Shown: positions 890 through 3,015 of the stretch, in pieces
How the letters are laid out: each line of letters begins with the position of its first letter
How positions within the stretch are numbered: position 1 is the first letter of the stretch
Source of the DNA: Acidimicrobiales bacterium
GTDB taxonomy: Bacteria > Actinomycetota > Acidimicrobiia > Acidimicrobiales > CADCSY01
NCBI GenBank assembly: GCA_035512495.1
Contig: DATKDW010000085.1
Span: 1 to 37,980, forward strand
DNA: 37,980 nt
Direction of reading: 5' to 3'
Made by a program: the position numbers and the translations under genes
The notes under the pieces: generated by a model
The model's input: the letters and a program-made list of their open reading frames with translations, nothing else
Database searches by the model: none
What the model was told of the DNA's origin: nothing

Positions 890-909
890 GAGTGCCCCGC
901 GGGGCACTC
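890..909. repeat. Palindromic repeat, copy 3 (just after the HNH gene stop)
   Basis: A perfect 20-bp palindrome, GAGTGCCCCGCGGGGCACTC, starts 4 bases beyond the stop codon of the DUF222-HNH gene. The identical sequence lies twice inside that gene, at 1659-1678 and 1725-1744. In this position it could fold as a transcription-terminating hairpin, although no T-run follows. Confidence 0.85.
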
Positions 910-913
910 GGGT

Positions 914-2398
914 TCAGGCGGCCCGGGGTTCGTGGGTGAGGAGCGCCCAGATGGTGTGGTGGAGGTCGAGGGGTTCGCCGTCCCAGCGGGTCTCGATGGT
1001 GTCGGGGCCGATGTCGATGCCGAGCCGCTGGTTGGCCTCGGCGAGATCACCGGTGCCAGGCGTGACCCCGCCGTGGCAGCTCGGCACGAAGGTGCCGTCG
1101 GGACGGAGAAACACCGCAGCGGTGGCAGTGCCGGTGATGCGGTAGCCGCCCTCGTGGACGGCCCGGTGGTGGTGACGGCACAACAACAACAGGTTGCTCA
1201 CGGCATGGCTGCCGCCGTTGGACTGATACGTGATGTGGTGCACATCGACGTGGCGGCTGGTGCAGCCCGGCCACCGGCACCGCCGGTGATCCCGGTTCAC
1301 CACCGCCCGCCGGGTGGCCGCCGGGACACTGGAGGTCTGGGTGGTGCCGACCGGCTCGCCGTCCTCGGTGACCATCGTGACGATGGTCGAGTCACACGCC
1401 AGGCGCCGGATGGTCTCAGCCGACAGGCCGGGCCCGTCCTGGAGGTGACCGGACAACCCGACCCCATCGCCCTGGTCCAGGCCGAGATCGGCGTGGACCA
1501 CCACCTGGTGGCGGTGCACCACCAAGCGCTCCAACGGCTCACCCGCCAACGCCGCCGCCATGATCGCCCCCAACGCATCAGCCCGCCGAGCCCCGACCGG
1601 ATCATCCGGGTTCACGACGCCCTCCACCACAGATCCGCCCTGGTCGTCGACGTCCGGGGAGTGCCCCGCGGGGCACTCCGAACCCTCAACGGCCAGCGCA
1701 GTCTCCGGGCAATCGGTGTCCGGGGAGTGCCCCGCGGGGCACTCGGGCCCGTCATCGCCATCAGCCGCGGCGGCCTCCCGCTCGGCTCGCCGCTCATCGG
1801 CGCGCAACAGCTCCACCGCCGCCTCGACCGCCTGACGCACCAACGCACCCGCCTCCGGCGGCAGACGAGCCGACAACACGAAGGTGCCGTCGTCATCGGT
1901 GTGCCACCGCACGTACCGCTGCGCTTCCCGACGCTCCGCCGCCCCCACATCACCCGCCCGGGCATGCGCCGCCGCAATCGTGTCGAGATGAGCCGCAGTG
2001 GCATGGGTGGCCATCTCCACCACCTCGGACTCCGTCGCCTCAGTGGCGAACCGGGTCACCGCCCGCACCTTCGAATACGACAGCTGCCCCGACGAGAACG
2101 CCTCCGTCACCACCGGCAAACCACCAAGCGCCCTGGCCACCCGCACCCGCTCGTGTGCCGCACGCAAGCTCAGCCCGCACCGCCACGACAACCACTGCGC
2201 GCACGACCGGCACTCCCACGACTCCCACCCCCGCCGACGATCCATCTCCGCCACCAACAACAACCACCGGCACTCCGCCGCCGCCAGCTGGCCTGCCAAC
2301 GACGTGATCTCCGCCTCCAACCGCTCCAACGGCAACCGCCCCACCTCGTCGCCAACCACGCCCTCGACCACCACCACATCGCACACCTGTTCACCCAT
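914..2398 (-). CDS. DUF222 and HNH endonuclease domain protein (13E12-repeat family)
   Basis: A 494-residue protein with the usual two-part layout: an N-terminal helical DUF222 region (about 20-200) and a C-terminal HNH nuclease domain (about 365-420). The nuclease shows a zinc-type pair C374/C379, the HH of the active site at 387-388, N402 and a histidine cluster at 409-415. Such proteins occur in many copies in actinobacterial genomes; their biological role is not settled, though a mobile or selfish nature is often suspected. The two domains are joined by an acidic linker (about 205-265) holding two copies of the heptapeptide ECPAGHS (219-225 and 241-247), each encoded by an identical 20-bp palindrome. 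The frame is intact, so it may be functional. It is a cytoplasmic DNA-acting protein by inference. Confidence 0.9.
   Translation of the reverse strand: MGEQVCDVVVVEGVVGDEVGRLPLERLEAEITSLAGQLAAAECRWLLLVAEMDRRRGWESWECRSCAQWLSWRCGLSLRAAHERVRVARALGGLPVVTEAFSSGQLSYSKVRAVTRFATEATESEVVEMATHATAAHLDTIAAAHARAGDVGAAERREAQRYVRWHTDDDGTFVLSARLPPEAGALVRQAVEAAVELLRADERRAEREAAAADGDDGPECPAGHSPDTDCPETALAVEGSECPAGHSPDVDDQGGSVVEGVVNPDDPVGARRADALGAIMAAALAGEPLERLVVHRHQVVVHADLGLDQGDGVGLSGHLQDGPGLSAETIRRLACDSTIVTMVTEDGEPVGTTQTSSVPAATRRAVVNRDHRRCRWPGCTSRHVDVHHITYQSNGGSHAVSNLLLLCRHHHRAVHEGGYRITGTATAAVFLRPDGTFVPSCHGGVTPGTGDLAEANQRLGIDIGPDTIETRWDGEPLDLHHTIWALLTHEPRAA
1659..1678. repeat. Palindromic repeat, copy 2 (inside the HNH gene)
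   Basis: A perfect copy of GAGTGCCCCGCGGGGCACTC, in frame, encoding ECPAGHS at residues 241-247. It shares 27 bases with the copy at 1725-1744, because both are preceded on the plus strand by GTCCGGG. Being self-complementary, it would encode the same peptide if inserted in either orientation. Confidence 0.9.
1725..1744. repeat. Palindromic repeat, copy 1 (inside the HNH gene)
   Basis: A second perfect in-frame copy, encoding ECPAGHS at residues 219-225, exactly 66 bases (22 codons) from the copy at 1659. Both lie in the low-complexity acidic linker between the DUF222 and HNH domains. Confidence 0.9.
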
Positions 2399-2452: not shown

Positions 2453-2800
2453 TCAGAGGGCGAGGTGGAGGCGCAACGCTTCGTCGAGTGCTGCCACGAG
2501 CTCGCCGGTGAGATCGCCGAGACGGGGACCGATGCGCTCGACGGCGACCGACCGGACCTGTTCCGCTTGGGCCTTCGAGTCCCGGTCGAGGCCGGTGCTG
2601 GCGGCATCCAAGATCACCTGGAACGGATGAGCGCGGGTCACGTTGGAGGTGACCGGGACGACGGTGATCACACCTCGGCCCAGGCGCTCGGCCGTCGTGT
2701 TCGCACCGTCGTTGCTCACGATGACGGCTGGTCGGCGCTTGTTTGCCTCCGCGCCTCGGGATGGGTCGAGATCGACGAGCCGGATCTCGCCTCGGCGCAT
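2453..2800 (-). CDS. mazF: MazF/PemK-type toxin (endoribonuclease)
   Basis: A 115-residue protein of typical MazF length, starting MRRGEIRLVDL. It shows the family signatures: RRPAVIVSND (22-31, with the conserved arginine), VVPVTSN (48-53, with the conserved threonine T51) and DSKAQAEQVRSV (74-85). MazF toxins cleave single-stranded RNA at short motifs and stop growth when the antitoxin is lost. An in-frame extension upstream to 2866 exists, but I chose ATG at 2798-2800 because homologues begin there and because it overlaps the antitoxin stop by one base (TGATG), which suggests translational coupling. It lies between the antitoxin gene and the HNH endonuclease gene. Confidence 0.9.
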   Translation of the reverse strand: MRRGEIRLVDLDPSRGAEANKRRPAVIVSNDGANTTAERLGRGVITVVPVTSNVTRAHPFQVILDAASTGLDRDSKAQAEQVRSVAVERIGPRLGDLTGELVAALDEALRLHLAL

Positions 2801-3015
2801 CAGGCGAGCCCGTCGCCGACGGACGGCTCCCACACCTCGTCGGAGCCGTCGGCCCAGTCGGCCCACGCGTCCTCGTAGGCGGGTCCGAGCTCCGAGGCGC
2901 GGAGCAGCCGGACGGCCCTCCTCACGGCGGCGGAGCGTGAACCGATCCCCTGGTTCGACGCGTAGCGATCCAGGAAGTCGACGTCCTCGTCGGGAAGGCT
3001 CACGCTCAGCTTCAT
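2800..3015 (-). CDS. mazE: MazE-type ribbon-helix-helix antitoxin
   Basis: A 71-residue protein starting MKLSVSLPDEDVDFLDRYA, a ribbon-helix-helix (CopG/Arc-like) DNA-binding N-terminus of about 45 residues. The acidic, tryptophan-rich tail (AYEDAWADWADGSDEVW) is the kind that normally wraps the toxin. This matches the actinobacterial type of MazE, which carries an RHH rather than an AbrB fold. Its stop overlaps the mazF start by one base. The start codon is followed immediately upstream by phased direct repeats (3015-3051) that look like an autoregulatory operator. No clear Shine-Dalgarno is visible. The pair sits 48 bases downstream of the folate operon, on the same strand. Confidence 0.88.
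   Translation of the reverse strand: MKLSVSLPDEDVDFLDRYASNQGIGSRSAAVRRAVRLLRASELGPAYEDAWADWADGSDEVWEPSVGDGLA

Follow-up and report, generated by a model that had tools for sequence, protein, structure and literature searches.

Why should a gene for a presumed nuclease carry the same perfect 20-bp palindrome twice within its reading frame and a third time directly behind its stop codon? The palindrome, GAGTGCCCCGCGGGGCACTC, was found exactly where the original prediction had placed it, including the two in-frame copies in the linker and the copy past the stop codon (Table 1), and no further copies with up to three mismatches were present in the window, by which we mean the whole stretch of 37,980 nucleotides that was analysed. 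Shuffled versions of the window contained on average 0.03 matches to the 20-mer, so that a chance occurrence is near nil. The gene that owns the sites is by both of its domains a member of the 13E12 / DUF222-HNH family, with Pfam matches to PF02720 (DUF222, E 1.2e-20) and PF01844 (HNH, E 5.2e-6) that both lie above the cut-off. The 13E12 family known from M. tuberculosis also belongs to the DUF222-HNH genes. A gene for a PemK/MazF-like toxin is located directly upstream (2453-2866, minus strand).

Table 1. The DUF222-HNH gene, its predicted parts and the palindromic sites in and behind it (positions in the window).
Feature	Position	Strand	Description
DUF222-HNH gene, owner of the sites	914..2398	-	494 aa
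DUF222 domain, residues 34-208	1775..2299	-	Pfam; part resembles the ParB/Noc DNA-binding domain (Foldseek, profile comparison)
Predicted recognition helix, residues 78-91	2126..2167	-	AF2 model; covarying residues R79, H82, E83
Interdomain linker, about residues 213-265	1604..1762	-	Residues 229-261 predicted disordered
Palindromic site, in frame	1725..1744		Codes for ECPAGHS, residues 219-225
Palindromic site, in frame	1659..1678		Codes for ECPAGHS, residues 241-247
Palindromic site, non-coding	890..909		4 bp downstream of the DUF222-HNH stop codon
HNH nuclease domain, residues 373-416	1151..1282	-	Pfam; conserved Cys/His residues

Local duplication of a linker repeat had been considered as one possible origin of the copies. 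This explanation suits the in-gene pair, which has 27 bp in common (1652-1678 and 1718-1744) and thus appears to be a duplication of one linker unit, but not the other copies, which share essentially only the 20 bp. Wherever several sites occur within one linker, their common flanks make them look like local duplications. A search of the whole genome, which the original prediction had called for, revealed that the palindrome is not confined to this gene and its paralogues: the 2.8 Mb source genome contains eight exact copies, one copy with a substitution and one 19-bp deletion form, and not a single copy of the reversed 20-mer that was used as control. The homology between dispersed copies ends at or just beyond the 20 bp, apart from a few common flanking bases. 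If the copies within the gene body are set aside, heuristic gene calls place four palindromes 4-22 bp behind a stop codon, another 139 bp behind pilB and a further two in divergent upstream regions; one dispersed copy spans the last codons of a HIT gene and adjoins an apparently truncated luciferase-like gene. Dispersed through the genome and outside the gene family, the palindrome is more than an inherited protein repeat. Five other DUF222-HNH loci of the source genome that were examined, with other helices, lack such a palindrome.

The 20-mer itself was absent from 58 relatives (11 of the same family and 47 of the same order), and the DUF222-HNH genes of other genera bear different CCGCGG-centred palindromes of 16-36 bp in the same linker and near the gene ends. 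The arms in the relatives differ from those in the source genome and yet remain self-complementary, with linker arms such as GACGATC in G020 and G076, GACGTTT and others in G008, GAGTCTT in G010, CGCGT in G053, GAGTCTG in G131 and CTGTGCT in G065, besides a 36-bp form in G008 and G040. Among the 12 matches with E ≤1e-60 listed for 397 genomes of the order, all except L029 have a CCGCGG palindrome in the linker, either perfect or imperfect. DUF222-HNH genes recur within the genomes searched, with up to 27 matches in one of them, and all clear in-frame copies of the palindromes fall in this one gene family. The palindrome CGGTTCCGCGGAACCG has 17 dispersed copies in G034 and 10 in G014, and these match copies that lie within the two genomes' own HNH genes or at their ends; in G020, G076, G194 and G010, no copy of the gene's own palindrome was found outside the HNH gene. 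In public genomes, no exact 20-mer was detected outside Clostridia MAGs, and none in viral contigs. In the Clostridia MAGs (L011-L017), the 20-mer mostly lies inside a longer conserved palindrome of the tccgctc...gagcgga type, often at contig ends, and these copies from gut Clostridia probably represent an unrelated repeat.

CCGCGG-centred perfect palindromes of at least 16 bp were counted 23 times in 6.6 kb of linker, 12 times in 35 kb of flanks (≤300 bp from the gene), 7 times in 73 kb of the rest of the gene and 4 times in 122 kb further away, a count that included a few loci fetched by palindrome pattern, which were left out of the pairing test. Palindromes of at least 16 bp with other centres numbered 0 in the linker, 7 in the flanks, 4 in the rest of the gene and 11 further away. 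In the unbiased test of all 38 CCGCGG sequences in linkers, arm pairing amounted to 0.711 versus 0.380 with re-dealt arms, and at least five contiguous arm pairs were found in 22 of the 38 sequences, whereas CCGCGG sequences from the gene body or from distant regions, serving as controls, stayed near background. The shuffles and the pairing test together rule out chance or codon bias as origin of the palindromes. Overall arm similarity was uninformative when set against whole-protein similarity (r about 0.33), and a comparison of the identities of the N- and C-terminal halves among 53 homologues yielded a weak correlation (r 0.35) and no clear swap indicative of domain shuffling at the linker.

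The decisive information came from the protein side. Listing the helix beside the arms first suggested a code, and in a blind scan, 304 protein columns from 26 genes were then compared with five arm positions. The top pair was DUF222 residue 82 with arm position 4 (z 14.4, compared to a permutation 99% maximum of 7.2; z 12.0 in the 20 genes left after reduction to <50% identity), where the permutation test takes genes as independent, a concern about kinship that dereplication and repeated switches lessen but do not remove. The next-best pairs, residue 82 with position 5 (7.8), residue 83 with position 3 (6.9) and residue 79 with position 3 (6.9), all involve the same predicted helix. At residue 82, Arg is accompanied by G in 20/20 cases, His by T in 5/5 and Tyr by T in 1/1; at residue 79 and arm position 3, Arg goes with G (5/5), Ser with C (9/9), Val with A (2/3) and Gly with T (2/2). 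His82 is present in G000 (the source genome) and G010 (both family f1), G194 (f10), G131 (f44) and G065 (f55), with Arg relatives alongside in f1 and f10.

After the rule had been fixed, 40 more loci were fetched, among which six new genes with applicable CCGCGG palindromes (L205, L228, L229, L230, L232 and L239) allowed eight predictions. All eight were right, an outcome expected from base frequencies alone with an estimated probability of ~0.006. L214 (G016), which had been seen earlier and was not used in the scan, agrees with the rule, as do the genes previously left out for their imperfect arms, namely L114 (Val-A, Arg-G), L082 (His-T; Gly-T on one arm) and L079 (Gly-T). In two genomes, Gln at residue 82 pairs with C (L239 and L214). 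Palindromes in the non-coding flanks at L129, L140 and L159 have the same centre, and their arms obey the same code. Some genes with a similar helix, for example L208 and L217, have no CCGCGG palindrome nearby. The covariation of the arms with the DUF222 recognition helix bears out the suspected connection between the palindrome and the nuclease gene hosting it.

In the AF2 model of the window protein (mean pLDDT 79), helices 66-74 and 78-91 fit a helix-turn-helix, and the predicted disorder of residues 229-261 explains why sites are tolerated in the linker. Foldseek searches of the PDB identified the C-terminal part as McrA-type HNH and repeatedly returned the DNA-binding domains of ParB, Noc and Spo0J (probability 0.85-0.99, with weak E-values of 0.4-1), matches that we assign to the helical N-terminal part of the model. 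An alignment of the DUF222 profile with eight ParB proteins had 77 columns in register and a score of 27.9 (hhalign probability 20.6%, P 0.0011), compared to 9.8-15.5 for column-shuffled and 11.7 for reversed ParB. Because a plain profile search of the PDB with DUF222 did not find ParB, homology of DUF222 to the ParB DNA-binding domain is likely but unproven. An N-terminal, CTP-binding ParB domain was not found in the window gene, for which Pfam gives only the DUF222 and HNH families. ParB binds parS as two domains in 2-fold symmetry, each inserting its recognition helix into the major groove, and the specificity of ParB and Noc depends on a few residues within this helix and beside it (PMC7383237). 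ParB-parS and Noc-NBS resemble the system described here in combining a helix-turn-helix protein, to which DUF222 shows a statistically weak similarity in fold and profile, with scattered exact palindromic sites, and several copies per genome, ten in the source genome, are also a trait of ParB/Noc sites. Unlike ParB and Noc, the window protein has an HNH nuclease attached, and the sites of DUF222-HNH proteins concentrate at their own gene and vary between genera.

We consider it likely that the DUF222-HNH protein recognises the palindrome carried by its own gene, as a cognate site that is specific to the lineage. Binding is strongly supported at the sequence level, where dispersion, architecture, position, arm pairing, covariation and correct out-of-sample predictions were all established by computation. 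Two DUF222 helix-turn-helix copies, similar to those of ParB/Noc, would bind the half-sites of NNNNNNN-CCG|CGG-NNNNNNN, presumably directly and as a dimer, with residues 79, 82 and 83 of the recognition helix reading arm positions 3 and 4 and the CCGCGG centre being common to the sites. A change in the helix would alter both arms together, and because both follow the helix, sites could remain palindromic even as their sequence comes to differ from genome to genome.

It appears improbable to us that the palindrome is a mobile element of the REP type, which some unrelated enzyme (for example a RAYT-type transposase) would spread and for which the linker would merely be a tolerant landing spot. 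REPs are palindromes of 20-40 bp that mostly occur near gene 3' ends or between convergent genes, and in some cases inside genes (PMC3733652). The 20-bp palindromes of the source genome, G034 and G014 are likewise mostly extragenic, and many lie between convergent genes or just 3' of a gene, no more than about 25 bp from its stop codon (heuristic gene calls). However, neither a GTAG/CGTC tag nor a conserved flanking tetramer was found in the copies of these three genomes, the copies are few (about 10-17), and they are tied to an HNH protein instead of a tyrosine transposase. Nor would mobility of this kind predict the covariation with the nuclease's own helix or the use of the same linker across many genera.

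Slightly less probable still is a function as transcription terminator or RNA hairpin, in which the arms would co-vary to preserve the stem in RNA. A stable hairpin is predicted for the palindrome (-15.2 kcal/mol), pyrimidine-rich tails reminiscent of terminators flank each side of the dispersed copies in G014 and G034, and the four source-genome copies shortly behind stop codons would be suitably placed. Pairing in RNA accounts for self-complementarity, but not for an arm base that tracks one amino acid; terminators within a coding linker would be harmful, and the source-genome copies have no T-tracts. A secondary role as terminators is possible for the scattered copies.

That an inherited protein repeat of the linker (an SAE/PAG motif) is palindromic in DNA only through codon choice is very improbable, since the single codon phase of 36/38 linker CCGCGG sequences and the duplication-like common flanks of in-gene multiples are outweighed by identical non-coding copies elsewhere in the genome, by the same centre and code-obeying arms in the non-coding flanks of L129, L140 and L159, and by arm pairing far above that of re-dealt arms. 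The likeness to Rickettsia palindromic elements that had been pointed out, a palindrome translated in frame inside a protein gene, proved to be weak. Those elements measure 105-146 bp and occur in 19 different reading frames (PMC2229807), unlike sites of 16-36 bp that occupy one homologous spot in essentially one gene family, in many genera and with differing arms; an insertion element of the Rickettsia type was rejected on the grounds of size, host range and fixed location.

If the palindrome is the recognition site of the DUF222-HNH protein, we favour a local action of the enzyme at its own gene, which might consist in repression, clamping, or controlled cutting leading to recombination and gene duplication, and some lineages may additionally accumulate scattered REP-like sites near gene 3' ends. 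The clustering of the sites at the own gene (upstream, linker and 3' end) would be in keeping with autoregulation, or with self-directed cutting by which recombination of this repeated gene family is promoted. Cleavage and homing may be further activities of the protein, although a nuclease site inside the nuclease's own gene would be odd unless cutting is controlled, which counts against a cognate site. HNH homing endonucleases similarly combine an HNH domain with a presumably long specific site, but in their case the site is split by the enzyme gene, whereas the sites described here are intact inside or beside the DUF222-HNH gene.

The 13E12 / REP13E12 DUF222-HNH genes of mycobacteria, which have the same domain pair as the window gene and are likewise repeated in genomes, were reported to be under LexA control (PMC4181829). 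Palindromes of the form TCGAACATATGTTCGA or CGAACATATGTTCG near the start of DUF222-HNH genes at L144, L148, L154, L118, L226, L227 and L242 resemble actinobacterial SOS boxes, and these genes may be LexA controlled as well. Together with the LexA control reported for 13E12 genes, the SOS-box-like palindromes found next to several homologues suggest an induction by DNA damage; a LexA box was sought upstream of the window gene, without a convincing match. A 28-bp palindrome with another centre (AAGCGTTCGTCAACGTTGACGAACGCTT) is located right at the start of the DUF222-HNH gene at L114 (G006), the linker of which contains an imperfect CCGCGG site that fits the helix-arm code. It is a tentative and rather doubtful extension that DUF222-HNH proteins are self-targeting, homing-like site-specific nucleases with a ParB-type reader and a readable helix-to-arm code, in which damage-triggered cutting at the palindromic targets in and around their genes would lead to duplication and exchange of the gene and would spread both the gene and its sites.

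In the literature found, no cognate palindrome or DNA target is given for the 13E12 / DUF222-HNH family, and searches for DUF222 together with palindromes or ParB, and for CCGCGG sequences, returned no prior description; the one inspected case of a co-mention of DUF222 and ParB concerned DUF2220. The covariation provides a very common, uncharacterised enzyme family with a candidate DNA target, the residues that would read it and a partial code, which opens binding, specificity switching and cleavage to direct tests. If the assignment is true, it would at the same time account for a class of palindromes scattered through these genomes.

Some palindromes of the source genome have conspicuous neighbours. 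One copy (L018:1059) adjoins a PIN/Phd toxin-antitoxin pair, and a pair of palindromes on contig C61 brackets two genes. On contig C47 (L022:6449-7247), a luciferase-like monooxygenase gene seems to be cut short at a palindrome, and two variant copies with common flanks bracket most of this gene. As the neighbours at C61 and C47 had no counterparts in relatives, we do not claim that palindromes form the borders of inserted cassettes. On contig C70 (L020:6410-8170), ~1.75 kb with two predicted secreted-type ORFs lie between pilB and pilT, which appear nearly adjacent in G006 and G007, and one palindrome is located near the start of this insert.
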